Source of the DNA: Candidatus Babelota bacterium
GTDB taxonomy: Bacteria > Babelota > Babeliae > Babelales > Vermiphilaceae
Length of the DNA: 47,035 nt
Assembly (NCBI GenBank): GCA_029262575.1
Contig: JAJCZC010000033.1
Coordinates: 1-47,035 of the forward strand
Direction: 5' to 3'
The stretch's first letter is position 1, and each line of letters opens with the position of its first letter. Under the pieces are notes generated by a model. That model did no database searches. It was not told where the DNA came from and saw only the letters and a program-made list of their open reading frames with translations. The position numbers and the translations under genes were made by a program. This document shows, piece by piece, positions 3,902 to 10,606 of the stretch.

Positions 3902-6175
3902 ATGAATAAAAAATCACTTATTTTATTTTTATTATGCATGTCATGTGACTTAGCTGCACACATCACCCTATCTCACATTCAAGAATATACGGCCCAGCAT
4001 CCTGAGTTTCCTCAAACAGATAAAAATGATTGGAATGATCCAGTTTATGACACATTTTATAAAAGCCTTCGGCCAAACATGCTCACCCGTTGGATGAATT
4101 GGCTCGGTTTTGGCAAAGCAGAAACTTGGAATGCCTATGCCTTTAAAGAGCTACTTGAAGAACAAATCGAATCTCGTGAACGCAAAAATTTATCGGGGCG
4201 ACACGTTGCAAAACTACTTATAGATGAACCTGTCAATGTTTACGTTTTTGGTGACATTCAAGGCGCTCTTCATTCATTAATACGCAGTATGACCTTTTTA
4301 AAAGAAAAAAACATCATTAATAATGACATGATCATCACACAACCTGACACTTATATTGTTTTCAATGGCGACTTCATTGATCGATCGGCATATTCGATAG
4401 AATCACTCTATGTTGTAATGCTTTTATTGCAACGAAATCCTGATACCGTGTTTTATATTCGCGGCAAACATGAAGATAAAGATTACTGGCAAAATTTCGG
4501 CTTAAAACGCGAACTAATTCAACGCATGGATTTCATGCTAGCCAGCGATGCTCCTGCCGATACAATTCCAATGGGTGACTCAATACGACGCTTCTTTAAC
4601 TCATTGCCCTTAGCCCTTTATATTGCAACCAAAGATAATCCCACAGAACTTATTCGCATCTCGCACGCAGGAAGAAACAGCCCAGAACTAAAAGAACACC
4701 TCTATGATGATTTCTTCACTCGCCAACCTGCAGAAAAAATTAGTTACTTCAATGTCAGTAAAAAAAACAAATCGAAAGTTACGCCACAAATCAAAGCACT
4801 TATTACCACCGAGAATTGGATCAAGGAGCATCGCGCAACACAAGGGCTTGGTTTGCTTGATCAAGACCTCGGAACCACAGCATGGTCAATTGTTTCAACT
4901 CCAATTATGGCATATCAAAATTATTACAACTTTTTTTATGATGCACTGGTTGAAATAAAAATAAAAACCCCTCTTAATAAAAGCACTATTAGCGTATGGA
5001 ACAATAATATCAATACACCAACAAAATTTGAACGCAAGGCTCAATTCAACCTGATCACCTCTATTCCATCCTCAGAAATTGAAGAAGAGTACCTTGAAAA
5101 ACCTCAAATTAAAATAGGTTCTTCAATGGCGCTTAAACGCGGGGTTGCCATTATGGGGCAACGCATCAAGCGCGGTATGGACATTCGCGTGAACGAACAA
5201 AATCAAAAAGGTGGCATTAACGGCCAACATATCAAAACCATCATTTATAACGATGACTATACACCTTTTTTAGCACGCCAAAACATTGATCGCTTAATGA
5301 ATGTTGATGATACGCGCCTTATTATACTCCCAGTAGGCAGCCCGACGCTCAAGGCATACTTTGATTACGTAAAAGAACAAAAGATTACAGTCCTCTTTCC
5401 TGTTACTGGATCAAATGAATTTAGAAAACCGACCCTTAAAAGTTTGGTTAACTTCAGGCCAACCTATGCAGATGAAGTACAAATTTTATTGGATTACCTG
5501 TTCACTGAATATGGAGCACGTAAATTTCTATTCTTTTATCAAAACGATAGTTACGGACTTGATGCACTGGAACAAGCACATAAAGAACTTGAAGCTCGCG
5601 GCATAACCGATTGGGTAGATGTTTCTTACGCTCGCGGTGAGACTAATTTCAAAAAACAGGCTGAAACTATCGCAAACGCGCAAGTTGATGCCATCGGGCT
5701 TTTTTCAACCGCAAAAGCAACTGAAGAACTGTTTCGGCAAATTGGCATTGATGCATTATCAAACAAAAAGCTGTTTGGCATATCATTCTTAGGCGAAGTA
5801 TCATTCAGAGAATTTATTAAGTCCCGCGGCTTGCAAGTAATGCTCGGGGCAGCTGTGCCAAATCCAGCAAAAAGCAACCTTGAATCTGCAAAGCTTTATC
5901 GCAAGGCAATGGATAAAAACAATCTTCCTTATGACGTGTTTTCACTTGAAGCATTCATAACCACAAGCCTTTTGATGAATGTAATGAAGAGCATACAAGG
6001 TCCAATTACACGAGAAAAAATAGTTGAAAAATTAGAAGCATTCTATCTTGATAAATTTCAGGGACTCACCTTAACCTTTAACCCAAAAACTCGCAGTTTA
6101 GCCCGCTATGTTTGGATTGAAACAGCTGAAAATGAAAACTGGATTGAAAGAAAAATCAAGAATGTATTGGCTTAA
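3902..6175 (+). CDS. Exported fusion: PPP-type phosphatase-like domain + LivJ-type periplasmic binding domain
   Basis: After a signal peptide (about 1-20), residues 110-260 form a calcineurin/PPP-like phosphatase domain with GDIQG (117-121), GDFIDR (156-161), RGKHE (187-191) and SHAGR (254-258). In active PPP enzymes these read GDxHG, GDxxDR and GNHE, so a metal-binding His is Gln here and the catalytic Asn is Lys; activity may be lost or altered. Residues about 402-757 are a type I periplasmic binding domain: IGSSMALKRG, then a helix and GGINGQ, with FYQNDSYGLDAL in the hinge area. This is the branched-chain amino-acid receptor fold (Peripla_BP_6). No ABC permease genes lie nearby; instead the channel homologue is immediately upstream. 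The role may be ligand sensing for that channel, which is inference. Confidence 0.85.
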   Translation: MNKKSLILFLLCMSCDLAAHITLSHIQEYTAQHPEFPQTDKNDWNDPVYDTFYKSLRPNMLTRWMNWLGFGKAETWNAYAFKELLEEQIESRERKNLSGRHVAKLLIDEPVNVYVFGDIQGALHSLIRSMTFLKEKNIINNDMIITQPDTYIVFNGDFIDRSAYSIESLYVVMLLLQRNPDTVFYIRGKHEDKDYWQNFGLKRELIQRMDFMLASDAPADTIPMGDSIRRFFNSLPLALYIATKDNPTELIRISHAGRNSPELKEHLYDDFFTRQPAEKISYFNVSKKNKSKVTPQIKALITTENWIKEHRATQGLGLLDQDLGTTAWSIVSTPIMAYQNYYNFFYDALVEIKIKTPLNKSTISVWNNNINTPTKFERKAQFNLITSIPSSEIEEEYLEKPQIKIGSSMALKRGVAIMGQRIKRGMDIRVNEQNQKGGINGQHIKTIIYNDDYTPFLARQNIDRLMNVDDTRLIILPVGSPTLKAYFDYVKEQKITVLFPVTGSNEFRKPTLKSLVNFRPTYADEVQILLDYLFTEYGARKFLFFYQNDSYGLDALEQAHKELEARGITDWVDVSYARGETNFKKQAETIANAQVDAIGLFSTAKATEELFRQIGIDALSNKKLFGISFLGEVSFREFIKSRGLQVMLGAAVPNPAKSNLESAKLYRKAMDKNNLPYDVFSLEAFITTSLLMNVMKSIQGPITREKIVEKLEAFYLDKFQGLTLTFNPKTRSLARYVWIETAENENWIERKIKNVLA

Positions 6176-6203: not shown

Positions 6204-6755
6204 TTAGCTTCTCATGTTGCGGCCATAATCTTGGGTAAGCCATGCTAAAGAGCCAAACATCCAGCCAACACCTAATATCTTTTTTTGATCAGCCTCAGGA
6301 ATTTGATCCCAATATTTGTGCAAAAGAAAAGCAACAACGCCTGTGGTAGCCAACGAACCGATGATGTGACCAACTTCGTGCATGCGGCTAGACAAAGCTG
6401 CACTACGCTCGGCATCTTGTCGAGACGAAAAACTATCAATGCTCTGCTCACAAGGACTATCTCTCAGAGCATGATGTAAACATTGTAGCTTAATTGCTGT
6501 AAACGTATGCGGTAAAGTTAATGTTGTGCATAAACCGGAAGTCGCATATTGGGCCTTTTGCCCAAAAACATGCCGCACCGGCACAGTGATTAATCCGCTA
6601 TATACTAACGACTCATAAGATCCTCGTATAAAACCTGCCCCCAATTGGTGCAACACTTTTTCAGATTCTTGAATTCTGTTATACGGTGTAAGTTGATTAT
6701 TTGAGACAATTAATGATGCGCAGAATACAGCTGTTATTATTGCAAGATTTCTCAT
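6204..6755 (-). CDS. Exported protein of unknown function with an HExxH motif
   Basis: I do not recognise a family. I start at the ATG at 6755, because AAGGA lies 5 nt upstream and the product then begins with a clean signal peptide (NLAIITAVFCASLIV). An upstream in-frame ATG at 6785 lacks such a site. Near residue 125 it has HEVGHIIG, which matches the HExxH zinc-protease pattern, but this sits beside a hydrophobic segment (LATTGVVAFLL) and no third ligand is obvious. A second hydrophobic stretch (ILGVGWMFGSLAWL) follows near the C-terminus, so it may be a membrane protein. It converges with the channel/fusion pair and is transcribed toward it. Protease activity is only a possibility. Confidence 0.6.
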   Translation of the reverse strand: MRNLAIITAVFCASLIVSNNQLTPYNRIQESEKVLHQLGAGFIRGSYESLVYSGLITVPVRHVFGQKAQYATSGLCTTLTLPHTFTAIKLQCLHHALRDSPCEQSIDSFSSRQDAERSAALSSRMHEVGHIIGSLATTGVVAFLLHKYWDQIPEADQKKILGVGWMFGSLAWLTQDYGRNMRS

Positions 6756-6961
6756 GATGATCCTTGGTATGCTGGAGTTATTCAAATGTTCTTGCTCGAT
6801 TATAGGGCATCATAAGGCCGAAGTAAAGCAATAACCCATTTTTTATTCTCTTTGAAATAACAGAGGCGCCTGTTTACATAATACCCACTAATGATAAAAT
6901 AATAATATGAAGCAAGCAGTACGTAAAATATCACCTTCACTTTATTATATAATGGGAAACT

Positions 6962-7654
6962 ATGAACAGAGCCAACATAATTGCCTTTTGCCTAAGCACT
7001 CTCTTGACAATAAGCCTATCAGCATCTGGGCAAGAGGATACACAAAAGTCGGTAGCCATATATTTTAGGCCATATAACGTTGTTTGGGCAAATGATACGA
7101 GTGCCATACTCAAAGAATTGGGTAATTTCATAACAAGTCACAAATGGCTATCTACAAAACTCACACTTTGCTCAACCTTACTGCCAGAAGGTTTTTATAG
7201 GTGGTATCGAGGCGATTCTTTACCCAAATTTTATCCGCTTTTTGAGCGCACAAACCCAACAGGTGAACTTAAAGAGTTAGCTCTTAACATCACCATCGAT
7301 ACGAAACAAGAACTCCCTGGTACAGAGCTTCTAAACTGGTTTCTAGAACAGCAGCTTCCTGTGTATTGCATAACGGATCAATTGGCACCACTTTACCCAC
7401 GTATCAAACAACGCTTTACCATATTTGAACAGATTCATGACATTATACAAAAAGAAGATACAACGGTGTATAGCACGATTATTAATCAGCAAGAAGAGCG
7501 CACCTGTGCGATACTTGTTTTACCTAAAACAGCAAAAGAAAACGATATTGAAGCCGCAATAGATGCTGGATTTAAACTTGTCTATTTTGATAAAGAAGAC
7601 GCCCAAAACTCAATAGCTGAAATCAAGGAACAAATTAACCAGCTTATACAATAA
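6962..7654 (+). CDS. Exported HAD-like protein, probably catalytically dead
   Basis: A signal peptide (about 1-22) is followed by a HAD-like pattern: VAIYFRPYNVVW where HAD phosphatases have a DxDGVL-type motif I, then ELLNWF...LPVYCITDQ resembling motif II, and ILVLPKTAKENDIEAAIDAGFKLVYF (split here as LPKTAKEN and AAIDAGFKLVYF) resembling motif IV, where active enzymes have IDDxxxN. The nucleophile Asp and the motif IV Asp pair are both replaced (RPY, LP). I therefore infer a non-catalytic HAD fold. TATAAT at 6948-6953 lies very close to the ATG at 6962, which would give a very short leader if used. A strong hairpin terminator follows. An unrelated fold cannot be excluded. Confidence 0.6.
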   Translation: MNRANIIAFCLSTLLTISLSASGQEDTQKSVAIYFRPYNVVWANDTSAILKELGNFITSHKWLSTKLTLCSTLLPEGFYRWYRGDSLPKFYPLFERTNPTGELKELALNITIDTKQELPGTELLNWFLEQQLPVYCITDQLAPLYPRIKQRFTIFEQIHDIIQKEDTTVYSTIINQQEERTCAILVLPKTAKENDIEAAIDAGFKLVYFDKEDAQNSIAEIKEQINQLIQ

Positions 7655-7680
7655 ATTATACTACCATGCTCCAAAACATC

Positions 7681-7721
7681 GGGCGATTATTTTGAAAAAT
7701 TTCAAAATAATCGCCCTTTTT
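7681..7721 (+). terminator. Rho-independent terminator
   Basis: A 17-bp perfect stem GGGCGATTATTTTGAAA with its complement around a 2-nt loop, followed by TTTTT. It ends the HAD-like gene at 6962-7654 and separates it from the RNA array downstream. Confidence 0.9.
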
Positions 7722-7894
7722 CTGAAATTTCTTTTTATTACTCATTTTTTTGCCCACTCTCAAGCAAAATCCCAATAAAACACCTAAAATCTCATTTACC
7801 TTTCAGAGTTTTAACATATTTTTAGTGCAAAAAACAAGACTAGACATAAATTAAGCAAAAAAGCCCTTATTTTAAACAAAAAATTTAAAAAACC

Positions 7895-7924
7895 TTGATT
7901 TTACATAACTCAATGTTTTATGAT
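7895..7924 (+). promoter_or_regulatory. Putative sigma-70 type promoter for the RNA array
   Basis: TTGATT (7895-7900) and TATGAT (7919-7924) are spaced by 18 nt and would start RNA near 7931, just ahead of the first repeat unit. No equally good promoter is visible before units 2 and 3, so the array may be one precursor. Confidence 0.45.
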
Positions 7925-7930
7925 GAAATG

Positions 7931-8240
7931 GAAGATAAAGAAAAGCGATCATCGATCAGCGATCTTTGAAAAAGATTTGTCAGAAACTTGTTAGGTATGC
8001 ATGTTTATTTCAGGCATGTGTGGCTAAGTAGCTATGAGTAACGAATATATCAGGTTGAGATGTATTGGTGAAAACAGGTAACGCAGATATTGATTACTGA
8101 AGTTGAACTGTAATTAAGCAGTAAATATGAAATAAATGCGCAAGAAGTAAGGCGAAACAATCAATAATGCTGAAAAGCATTATTGATTATCAACCATAAA
8201 AGTGAGTAGCATATGACTTTCCCGACATATGCTACCACCT
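7931..8240 (+). ncRNA. Candidate structured RNA, unit 1 of 3
   Basis: No protein is encoded. Helices by position: P1 7999-8003/8015-8019; P2 8020-8025/8030-8035; P3 8044-8051/8059-8066 with loop AGGTTGA; P4 8107-8111/8118-8122. A 13-bp hairpin with a GAAA loop follows (8159-8171/8176-8188), then TCAACC at 8190-8195, complementary to the P3 loop GGTTGA at 8053-8058. Last is a 10-bp hairpin, 8206-8215/8226-8235. Several pairs are G-T in the DNA, which work as G-U only if the plus strand is transcribed. The core TGTTTATTTCAGGCATGT and GAACTGTAATTAA are shared with unit 2. The 5' and 3' ends are estimates. I cannot match it to a known RNA family. Confidence 0.7.
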
Positions 8241-8249
8241 AAAAAAGTA

Positions 8250-8530
8250 ATAAAAAAAATCTTTGAAAATTTTGTCATGAACTTGGTAACTGTAGATGTT
8301 TATTTCAGGCATGTATAGTTAGATAATTATAGAGTAAGCAACATTTCTGGTTGAGATATGTTGGCGAAAATAATTAAAGCAGGTATGGATTACTGAAATT
8401 GAACTGTAATTAAACAGTAAATATGAAATAATGCACAAGCTAAGATCATGACAAAGCACTCAACCAATTGCGTAAGGAACATACTGTTCAGAGAGCATAT
8501 TGCTTTATGGCGTATGTTCCTTACCTTTAA
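8250..8530 (+). ncRNA. Candidate structured RNA, unit 2 of 3
   Basis: Same plan as unit 1. P2 is 8315-8320/8325-8330, with different bases but intact pairing. P3 is 8339-8347/8355-8363 (one T-T mismatch) with loop TGGTTGA. P4 is 8403-8407/8414-8418. TCAACCA at 8460-8466 is a 7-nt complement of the P3 loop. A 13-bp hairpin (8472-8484/8512-8524) closes the unit; its arms share no sequence with the end hairpins of units 1 and 3. The hairpin that precedes TCAACC in units 1 and 3 is not evident here. A weak AAGCC/GGTTT hairpin with a T run follows at 8538-8555. Ends are estimates. Confidence 0.7.
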
Positions 8531-8560
8531 AACTATTAAGCCTTTTGGTTTTTTATGAAG

Positions 8561-8832
8561 AATTGTGAAGTCATAACACTTGAAAAGAAATATATGTTTA
8601 TTTTGGACATGTATTACTAAAGTGATTATATGAATAAACACAGGGTTGAATGTGTTTGTGTGTATAATTATCGCAAGTATATCTTACTAAAATTGAACTG
8701 TAATTAAACAGTAAATAAGATATATAGGTGAAGTAAATGATAACGCAAGCAACAATACTCATACACGAGTATTGTTGTCAACCAAACAAAGCGAGTAGTA
8801 ATGCATGAAAGTGCTTACTGCTCGCTGTTTTA
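8561..8832 (+). ncRNA. Candidate structured RNA, unit 3 of 3
   Basis: The most diverged copy. P1 is 8591-8596/8608-8613; P2 8613-8617/8622-8626; P3 8636-8642/8651-8657 (7 perfect pairs, sequence different from units 1 and 2) with loop GGGTTGAA; P4 8697-8701/8708-8712. An 11-bp hairpin 8750-8760/8767-8777 precedes TCAACC at 8778-8783, again complementary to the P3 loop. The last hairpin is 8791-8806/8811-8825 with a GAAA loop and one bulge, then TGTTTT, so it could act as a terminator. It converges with the mazF-like gene and its 3' end touches that gene's stop. Confidence 0.68.
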
Positions 8833-9162
8833 ATCCAGATCCAAAGCAACTTTTAAGGCTTTATCTATTTGATCAATCGTTGCAATATCGCACATACCAA
8901 TTTGTTTACCAACACGACCTTTGTCAACAGCCTTAATTTGATTGAGTAAAATCATACCTTTGACTTGTTCGAGGATAATTGGCACAGTAAACGAAAATTT
9001 CTTCTTTGAGGTACTTGTTATAGGTGCAACAATTACAATATTACTATATTGATTGCCAACATCATTAGAAACTATAACCGACGGGCGTGTTTTTTTTATT
9101 TCGGCACCAACTGTTGGATCTAATTTAACCCAGTAAATATCGCCACGCTTAGGGTAACTCAT
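8830..9162 (-). CDS. MazF/PemK-family endoribonuclease toxin
   Basis: Likely an mRNA-cleaving toxin of a type II toxin-antitoxin pair. It shows the family's N-terminal block PKRGDIYWVKLDPTVGAE, then KTRPSVIVSND and VAPITS, with IRA/LNQIKAVDK-like strand and a C-terminal helix; the 110-residue length is typical. I choose the ATG at 9162: it overlaps the antitoxin stop as ATGA and has GAGGGG upstream, a translational-coupling arrangement. A GTG two codons earlier is possible. It converges with the structured RNA array. Its cleavage site cannot be read from sequence. Confidence 0.92.
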   Translation of the reverse strand: MSYPKRGDIYWVKLDPTVGAEIKKTRPSVIVSNDVGNQYSNIVIVAPITSTSKKKFSFTVPIILEQVKGMILLNQIKAVDKGRVGKQIGMCDIATIDQIDKALKVALDLD

Positions 9163-9386
9163 TCCCACCCCTCAGCTTCAAGAGCGCTCCAATCGCGCAT
9201 CGCTTCATTGTGCCCTTCATCCTTTGACGCTTCGATGTATTCTTGCTTAAGCTCCATTCTTTTTGCTTCCAAGGCTGTTTCTAATGCTTTTGCCACAAAT
9301 TTGCTCATATTTCTCCGACCAACCAATTTTTGCAACGATTTATGCATTTCAGGAGGAATCGAAAAAGTAACATTTATGTTTTTCAT
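9159..9386 (-). CDS. Ribbon-helix-helix type antitoxin partner of MazF
   Basis: A 75-residue protein whose N-terminus (NVTFSIPPEMHKSLQKLV, then RRNMSKFVAKAL) has the beta-helix-helix pattern of ribbon-helix-helix DNA-binding proteins. The acidic C-terminus (about 45-75) is the part that usually wraps the toxin. It lies directly upstream of mazF with a 4-nt overlap, which is the standard antitoxin-first order. By analogy it should repress its own promoter, upstream of 9386, and neutralise the toxin. Family-level identity is inferred from pattern and context. Confidence 0.8.
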   Translation of the reverse strand: MKNINVTFSIPPEMHKSLQKLVGRRNMSKFVAKALETALEAKRMELKQEYIEASKDEGHNEAMRDWSALEAEGWE

Positions 9387-9680
9387 ATTGGTATCCTTAT
9401 ATTAATAATCAGAACCTCACACTACATATTATACATTATTTATTGTTTATTGTTAATGGTTTTGAAAAAACGAATAGTTAGCTCATTTGAGCCCGCTTGC
9501 AAAACAGCTAAATTCATCCAGAATATCCATAAAAACACCTGGGATAAGAACTTTTTCGCTCAAACCTTTGTTTTTTGCTCCCCCTGTTTGATAACATAAA
9601 ACCAGAGGTGGTAAACAGTTCATCAATTAAAAAAAGGCCCTTCGATAATAAATTTGTTAAATTTAAACTCAGGATGAAAA

Positions 9681-9992
9681 ATGATGAAAAGAATATTATT
9701 GAGCATGGTGCTCTTGTTGAGTGGCGCGAATCTACTAGGTATAGTAGCAAGCAATAAAAAATTAGGTATAGTAGTAAGCAATAAAAAATTCCCAATACTT
9801 GGAGTTGACACTCCACAAGGAATTCGCCCGGATGGGCTGCCTTATGGTAGCCCTGAACCTTATCAGCATCGAACGTCACTCTTCTCAACCAATGAAGAAG
9901 AGTCACAATATAGAATACCACAATCTACACGACCTCCACATCTAATGACCCGGGAAGAACGGATGCGCATGATCGCACAGGGCGGTGTATAA
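9681..9992 (+). CDS. Small exported protein with an internal nine-residue tandem repeat
   Basis: No family recognised. A signal peptide (ILLSMVLLLSGANLLG) is followed by two copies of LGIVxSNKK, encoded by a 27-nt direct repeat at about 9739-9792. The rest is polar and proline-rich with no cysteines, ending near residue 103. AGGA precedes the ATG. A strong hairpin terminator follows. Similar short secreted proteins recur through the window, so it is probably part of the organism's exported orphan set. The near-identical repeat implies a recent duplication or slippage. Confidence 0.65.
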   Translation: MMKRILLSMVLLLSGANLLGIVASNKKLGIVVSNKKFPILGVDTPQGIRPDGLPYGSPEPYQHRTSLFSTNEEESQYRIPQSTRPPHLMTREERMRMIAQGGV

Positions 9993-10012
9993 CAATAGCA
10001 TCAAGAACATAA

Positions 10013-10055
10013 AATAAAGAAAGCCCGCATCTATAATGTGCGGGCTTTCTTTATT
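10013..10055 (+). terminator. Rho-independent terminator
   Basis: Long stem built on AAAGAAAGCCCGCA and TGCGGGCTTTCTTT with a short loop, running into TTATTTTATT. It ends the 9681-9992 gene. Confidence 0.88.
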
Positions 10056-10120
10056 TTATTGCCCCACGTAAAAAGCCTATGTTAACATCAAGACATATAA
10101 ATACTCTAAGGGGGAAACCA

Positions 10121-10606
10121 ATGGGACATAAGTTATTGCCTTTATATCTTTTATCTTTACTGCTCTTGCCTAGCTGCTGGCAGGAAGAACAACCAGAAGA
10201 ACAATCAACAAAACAACAAAAAGAGCCATCTCGATCAATGAGCAAAAGCATTCATCTTGAAGATATCGTTTCAAATAAAGAAGAAGCTCCCGATGTTTTG
10301 CGTAACGAAATTGCACAAGGCAAAACGGTTGTTGATTTTTATGCACAATGGTGTGGTCCGTGTAAATTAATGTCTCCAGTAATCGATGAATTGGCAAATG
10401 AATATAAAGATATTTCATTCATCAAAATTGACATTGATAAATTCACCGATCTCGCAAACGGTTTTGATGTTGATAATCAGCGGATCGTGATAAGTGGCAT
10501 TCCAACTATCTATTTTTTCAAAGATGGAAAAATCGTAGAAAAAGTTGGCGGCTATATAAGAAAGGAAGTCTTTAAAAAAATGATAATCAGCAAACTAGGC
10601 TCATAA
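10121..10606 (+). CDS. Thioredoxin-like lipoprotein (WCGPC)
   Basis: Likely a membrane-anchored thiol-disulfide protein facing the periplasm. I start at the ATG at 10121, behind AAGGGGG; the product then has a signal sequence ending in LLPSC, a lipobox with the lipidated Cys near residue 19. A charged linker leads to a thioredoxin fold with VVDFYAQWCGPCKLMSP, so the redox pair is WCGPC, and a cis-proline in SGIPTIYFF. It is the first of two neighbouring WCGPC proteins (next at 10735). A hairpin terminator separates them. Whether it reduces or oxidises its partners is unknown; no DsbB or DsbD homologue is visible here. Confidence 0.88.
   Translation: MGHKLLPLYLLSLLLLPSCWQEEQPEEQSTKQQKEPSRSMSKSIHLEDIVSNKEEAPDVLRNEIAQGKTVVDFYAQWCGPCKLMSPVIDELANEYKDISFIKIDIDKFTDLANGFDVDNQRIVISGIPTIYFFKDGKIVEKVGGYIRKEVFKKMIISKLGS

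Follow-up and report, generated by a model that had tools for sequence, protein, structure and literature searches.

Three tandem copies of a possibly undescribed structured RNA in the genome of a Candidatus Babelota bacterium

Type III toxin-antitoxin RNAs (ToxI-like) consist of tandem pseudoknotted units and occupy accessory regions close to a toxin gene; their repeats are about 36 nt long. CsrB-like sponge RNAs display nearly identical binding elements several times within one molecule. Comparative genomics has also revealed orphan structured RNAs, which are intergenic, have a conserved structure and belong to no known family (PMC2864571, PMC8632094, PMC6429828). The genome description of Babela massiliensis includes genes of rRNA, tRNA, SRP RNA, tmRNA and RNase P RNA; searching the paper for terms turned up no further noncoding or structured RNA (PMC4378268).

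Here we describe an array of three tandem units that span positions 7976-8833 (+) of a stretch of 47,035 nucleotides from a Candidatus Babelota bacterium. This whole stretch, which we call the window, is one contig (JAJCZC010000033.1) of a 1.66-Mb draft genome (GCA_029262575.1). The lineage is uncultured and probably host-dependent. The array occupies an intergenic gap of ~900 bases, is bounded upstream by a gene ending at 7654 and downstream by a convergent PemK gene, and the plus-strand GC skew becomes positive across it. The features are listed in Table 1.

Table 1. Positions of the array units, their structural elements and the neighboring features in the window
Feature	Position	Strand	Basis or remark
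Strong intrinsic terminator of upstream gene	7681-7716	+	terminator scan; parts the gene from the array
Promoter-like site TTGATT-18-TATGAT	7895-7924	+	9/12 matches; start expected at ~7931
Unit 1	7976-8240	+	repeat search, folding, alignment, RNAalifold
Unit 1 P0	7976-7981/8151-8156	+	
Unit 1 P1	7991-8027	+	
Unit 1 P2'	8029-8035/8074-8080	+	
Unit 1 P3	8044-8066	+	
Unit 1 P3 loop GGTTGA	8053-8058	+	complement TCAACC at 8190-8195, putative pseudoknot
Unit 1 P5	8082-8085/8137-8140	+	
Unit 1 P4 arm TTACTGAAGTTGAACTGTAATTAAGCAGTAAATA	8094-8127	+	nearly invariant
Unit 1 hairpin H6, GAAA loop	8159-8188	+	z -7.1; TCAACC directly 3'
Unit 1 terminal hairpin H7	8206-8235	+	z -7.6; without T-run after it
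Unit 2	8270-8524	+	repeat search, folding, alignment
Unit 2 P0	8270-8280/8446-8456	+	
Unit 2 P1	8287-8321	+	
Unit 2 P2'	8324-8330/8370-8376	+	
Unit 2 P3	8339-8363	+	
Unit 2 P3 loop TGGTTGAG	8348-8355	+	complement CTCAACCA at 8459-8466, 8 bp
Unit 2 P5	8379-8381/8432-8434	+	
Unit 2 P4 arm	8390-8423	+	
Unit 2 terminal hairpin H7, long outer stem	8472-8524	+	z -6.0; sequence unrelated to the other H7s
Unit 3	8563-8833	+	repeat search, folding, covariance model recovery
Unit 3 P0	8570-8574/8737-8741	+	
Unit 3 P1	8586-8618	+	
Unit 3 P2'	8623-8629/8664-8670	+	
Unit 3 P3	8636-8657	+	
Unit 3 P3 loop GGTTGA	8644-8649	+	complement TCAACC at 8778-8783
Unit 3 P5	8672-8674/8728-8730	+	
Unit 3 P4 arm	8684-8717	+	
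Unit 3 hairpin H6	8749-8778	+	z -6.8; position as in unit 1, other stem bases
Unit 3 terminal hairpin H7, GAAA loop, then GTTTTAAT	8790-8826	+	z -6.6
PemK/MazF-type toxin gene	8830-9168	-	Pfam E 1.8e-29
Small gene upstream of PemK, candidate antitoxin	9159-9386	-	candidate by its sequence look

A repeat search detected 100-nt copies at 8036-8135, 8332-8431 and 8626-8725, with a spacing of 296 and 294 nt. Over these 100 nt, identity with the first unit is 84% for unit 2 and 65% for unit 3. An earlier reading of the bare letters (the sequence-only reading) had claimed three diverged tandem units, and the repeat search bears this out. No fourth copy of the unit was found elsewhere in the genome.

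Single-sequence folding of the three units pointed to one architecture, in which P0 closes a multibranch domain of P1, P2'-P3 and P5-P4. The closing helix P0 is present in every unit and differs between units in sequence and length. P1 is a hairpin of ~15 positions with the loop AUUUC, P2' has 7 bp, and the upper arm of P4 is two-step. The three unit cores were aligned and a structure of 53 pairs was derived on the plus strand; RNAalifold without a structural hint gave nearly the same fold. Its plus-strand consensus has an energy of -23.5 kcal/mol vs -8.3 +/- 2.6 kcal/mol for shuffled alignments (z -6.0), and 0/300 alignments with columns permuted within conservation class were as low. The minus-strand consensus is much weaker (z -3.0). 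Over the 53 pairs, in a structure itself derived on the plus strand, there are 18 G-U cells vs 3 A-C cells. Both comparisons favor the plus-strand reading proposed earlier.

The common plus-strand fold is well supported. Paired cells make up 91.6% in register vs 26-49% after sliding the partners. Compensatory changes occur at 6 pairs, and three sequences that are all paralogues limit covariation to 5-6 pairs; within this limit, the array shows the covarying pairs that mark a structured noncoding RNA. A covariance model trained on units 1 and 2 without the third, and given their own RNAalifold structure, recovers unit 3 with 66 bits (E 4.9e-13), and a sequence-only model from the same units scores it at 49.5 bits, a comparison that is supportive only because the models weight sequence differently. 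The core of unit 1 taken as a single sequence has a weak z of -1.6. P2' has an ensemble probability of 0.84 in unit 2, 0.93 in unit 3 and 0.07 in unit 1, where it contains two mismatches.

The fold that had been proposed from the letters alone is retained in part. Its helix P3 pairs in all three units with compensatory changes. Its helix P2 (GTGGCT/AGCTAT in unit 1 and the corresponding strands in the others) has ensemble probabilities of 0.13, 0.00 and 0.00 in units 1-3 and, judged by this modeling, is probably not a real pairing. It could form by pairing the 3' arm of the longer hairpin P1 with the next segment; P1 was preferred, as it is in register in all units, covaries and has a probability of 0.65-0.98. 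P0, P1, P2', P5, the P4 arm and most of the H6 and H7 hairpins had been overlooked.

The P3 loop contains GGTTGA in 3/3 units, and exact complements TCAACC lie just outside P0, at 8190, 8460 and 8778. The complementarity amounts to 6, 8 and 6 bp in units 1, 2 and 3; for unit 2 it had been given as 7 nt. It is exact in all units though the surrounding tail is barely alignable, and this part of the previously claimed conserved pseudoknot holds. The bases are the same in all three units; compensatory change in the pseudoknot is thus absent, and covariation does not demonstrate it. As far as sequence can tell, a real GGTTGA/TCAACC pseudoknot is plausible. In unit 3 an outer pairing UUUGGUU/AACCAAA (8545-8560 with 8780-8790) is in partial overlap with the pseudoknot strand and might form at its expense.

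Across the three units 31/34 columns of the P4 arm and 14/17 columns of the P1 apex are identical, compared with 65/129 in the remainder of the core, and in the other helices it is mainly the pairing that is conserved, not the letters. The near-unchanged sequence of the P4 arm and of the P1 apical loop makes these two the likely contact surfaces. The lower internal loop of P4 in units 1 and 2 (8086-8144 and 8382-8440) has facing GA/GA steps (UAUUGA/AUAUGAAAUA), which may allow a bend of the kink-turn type; in unit 3 this position is occupied by Watson-Crick pairs.

No synonymous bias was found in any of the six reading frames. A minus-strand frame is open in all units; protein coding was rejected for it, since a comparison of units 1 and 2 gives 13 codons with a nonsynonymous change and none with a synonymous one. 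Each P1 also includes an 8-codon ORF on the plus strand (8001-8027, 8296-8322 and 8594-8620). The peptides are MFISGMCG, MFISGMYS and MFILDMYY, the stop is conserved, and the changes are mostly nonsynonymous. These mini-ORFs are probably a by-product of the hairpin.

The H6 and H7 hairpins are strong (z -6 to -7.6) yet divergent in sequence or missing between units. GAAA loops had been noticed in two end hairpins, and they are indeed present at 8159-8188 in unit 1 and at 8790-8826 in unit 3. Among the terminal hairpins only the latter has a T-run immediately behind it; it is the likely terminator of the array. The terminator scan did not call it, as this T-run is short. Units 1 and 2 have no T-runs directly after their hairpins, which suggests a single transcript through all three units. 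The promoter-like site upstream is weak, and shuffled sequence yields such sites as often.

A search with Rfam 15 at the gathering threshold gave 0 matches in the window. A relaxed scan of 7655-8840 gave low-scoring matches to families that include miRNA and snoRNA, all well below the gathering scores. That the sequence-only reading could not match the array to a known family is borne out at both thresholds. The same holds for RNase P RNA, tmRNA and SRP RNA in particular, as each of these was found above cut-off on other contigs of the genome. A separate tRNA/tmRNA search found none in the window. 6S RNA (RF00013) has no match anywhere in the genome; the array has a multibranch fold with a predicted pseudoknot, whereas 6S RNA is one long hairpin with a central bubble.

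Homologues were sought with several methods. BLASTN gave nothing but short AT-rich matches in 86 relatives and nothing beyond short matches in phage and plasmid collections. The Infernal-type search of related genomes that had been proposed along with the sequence-only reading was run and found no homologue outside the window: the covariance model found none under strict filters in 101 genomes from the phylum and none under laxer ones in 36. One model (R1) had weak matches of 16-19 bits in G000 C40, G001, G002, G006 and G034; the first three were inspected and rejected, as they overlap coding ORFs. Exact-pattern scans of viral and genome contigs gave many chance matches, and among the matches listed none of those tested exceeded 21 bits; the listed and tested matches covered 80 of at least 100 genome-contig stretches and 80 of at least 120 viral stretches. 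The best reading of these sequence searches is that the RNA is lineage-specific.

G001 belongs to the same genus, and its H+-PPase is 92% identical to that of the studied genome; a slowly evolving RNA should have shown there, and the array was not found. A 3.9-kb block (6204-10000) comprises two hypothetical genes, the RNA array, the toxin pair and a small ORF. In G007 the orthologues of the flanking genes 3902-6175 and 10079-10606 are adjacent and the block is absent between them; thus the block is lineage-specific and the array accessory. The flanking gene 3902-6175 (+) encodes a 757-aa single chain in which a calcineurin-like phosphoesterase is fused with a periplasmic binding (receptor ligand) domain. 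On the other side, after position 9992 and ahead of the thioredoxin gene at 10079, lies the most stable 50-nt hairpin of the window (10001-10060, -28.8 kcal/mol). PADLOC defence models matched none of the neighbors of the array, and no partner protein for the array was recognisable nearby. In G001 and G006 the PemK homologues occur without such an array next to them, which weakens the link between the array and PemK, and no PemK relatives were found in viral contigs.

A structured, duplicated plus-strand RNA without an Rfam match, as originally suggested, is supported by the RNAalifold consensus, covariation and the leave-one-out model, with transcription being predicted. Our preferred reading, held tentatively and a little short of an even chance, is a trans-acting, multi-unit structured RNA that is lineage-specific and accessory. 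Transcription would start from a promoter near 7900 and yield a single RNA of ~900 nt whose end lies at the unit 3 hairpin. Every unit would form its own fold, with the pseudoknot locking it. As contact surfaces, the P4 arm and the P1 apex would be offered three times; the three copies may then present an identical site to a single partner, protein or RNA, and act in trans as a multivalent scaffold or sponge. It is possible, but unlikely, that the array represents a new class, i.e., a large, pseudoknotted, multi-unit RNA that is an accessory system of its own (for example, an RNA inhibitor, a scaffold or a ribozyme array).

Several other explanations can be weighed against the same data. The array could be a relic, in which case a structured RNA or mobile element entered the genome and was duplicated long ago and is now functionless and decaying. 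The lack of matches in the other genomes searched and the location in a lineage-specific block are compatible with this, as are the difference of up to 35% between units and the H6 and H7 hairpins that differ or are missing. However, decay should erase both the pairing, which is maintained despite base change, and the near-invariant 34-nt arm, so we regard a relic as rather unlikely. The adjoining PemK gene brings to mind a toxin-antitoxin or conflict-system RNA, in which tandem, putatively pseudoknotted units would bind the toxin and inhibit it like a type III antitoxin; the accessory distribution would fit as well. This is improbable, because PemK already has a candidate partner in the protein encoded at 9159-9386 and is convergent on the opposite strand, not downstream as a type III system requires. 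Moreover, its homologues in G001 and G006 lack such an RNA, the units of ~270 nt far exceed type III repeats, and an Rfam match is absent. The end of the array coincides with the end of the toxin gene and the last T-run is short, so transcription past 8830 might silence the convergent PemK. We find such antisense or read-through regulation quite improbable, since it leaves unexplained both the three conserved folded units and the absence of the array beside the PemK homologues of relatives.

The remaining explanations concern the nature of the element itself. Strong hairpins fold on both strands, as would be expected for a folded single-stranded DNA element (a recombination or replication site). 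The 18:3 ratio of G-U to A-C cells and the strongly strand-specific consensus fold speak against it, and inspection of the ORF list of the window recognised no recombinase or reverse transcriptase; this makes a DNA element very improbable. Tandem cis-regulatory elements (riboswitch or attenuator) could act via the 8-codon ORFs and alternative pairing: each unit has an ATG, seven codons and a stop (at 8001, 8296 and 8594), and P1 competes with the P2 first proposed. Yet no plus-strand gene lies directly downstream and the neighbor is convergent; the first likely coding, gene-sized plus-strand ORF starts only at 9681, past two minus-strand genes. Most of the changes in the peptides are nonsynonymous, and the alternative P2 reaches a probability of no more than 0.13. 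Such a role is hardly credible.

If the array is expressed, it is an undescribed, sizeable structured RNA from a poorly studied lineage, present in three diverged copies, and the copies themselves supply the covariation evidence without a homologue elsewhere. The case also shows that RNAs confined to one species can escape family-based RNA searches. The accessory, strain-limited distribution points to a conflict or host-adaptation role and not to housekeeping.

Like the orphan structured RNAs mentioned above, the array is intergenic, has a conserved structure and belongs to no known family; unlike them, it is known from three copies in one genome, without homologues elsewhere. It resembles ToxI-like RNAs in its tandem, putatively pseudoknotted units and its accessory location close to a toxin gene, but its units are much longer, and the toxin, which is convergent and of the PemK type, has a protein of its own as candidate antitoxin. 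The similarity to CsrB-like RNAs is in principle only: the repeats of the array are large folded domains, whereas those of CsrB are short GGA hairpins.
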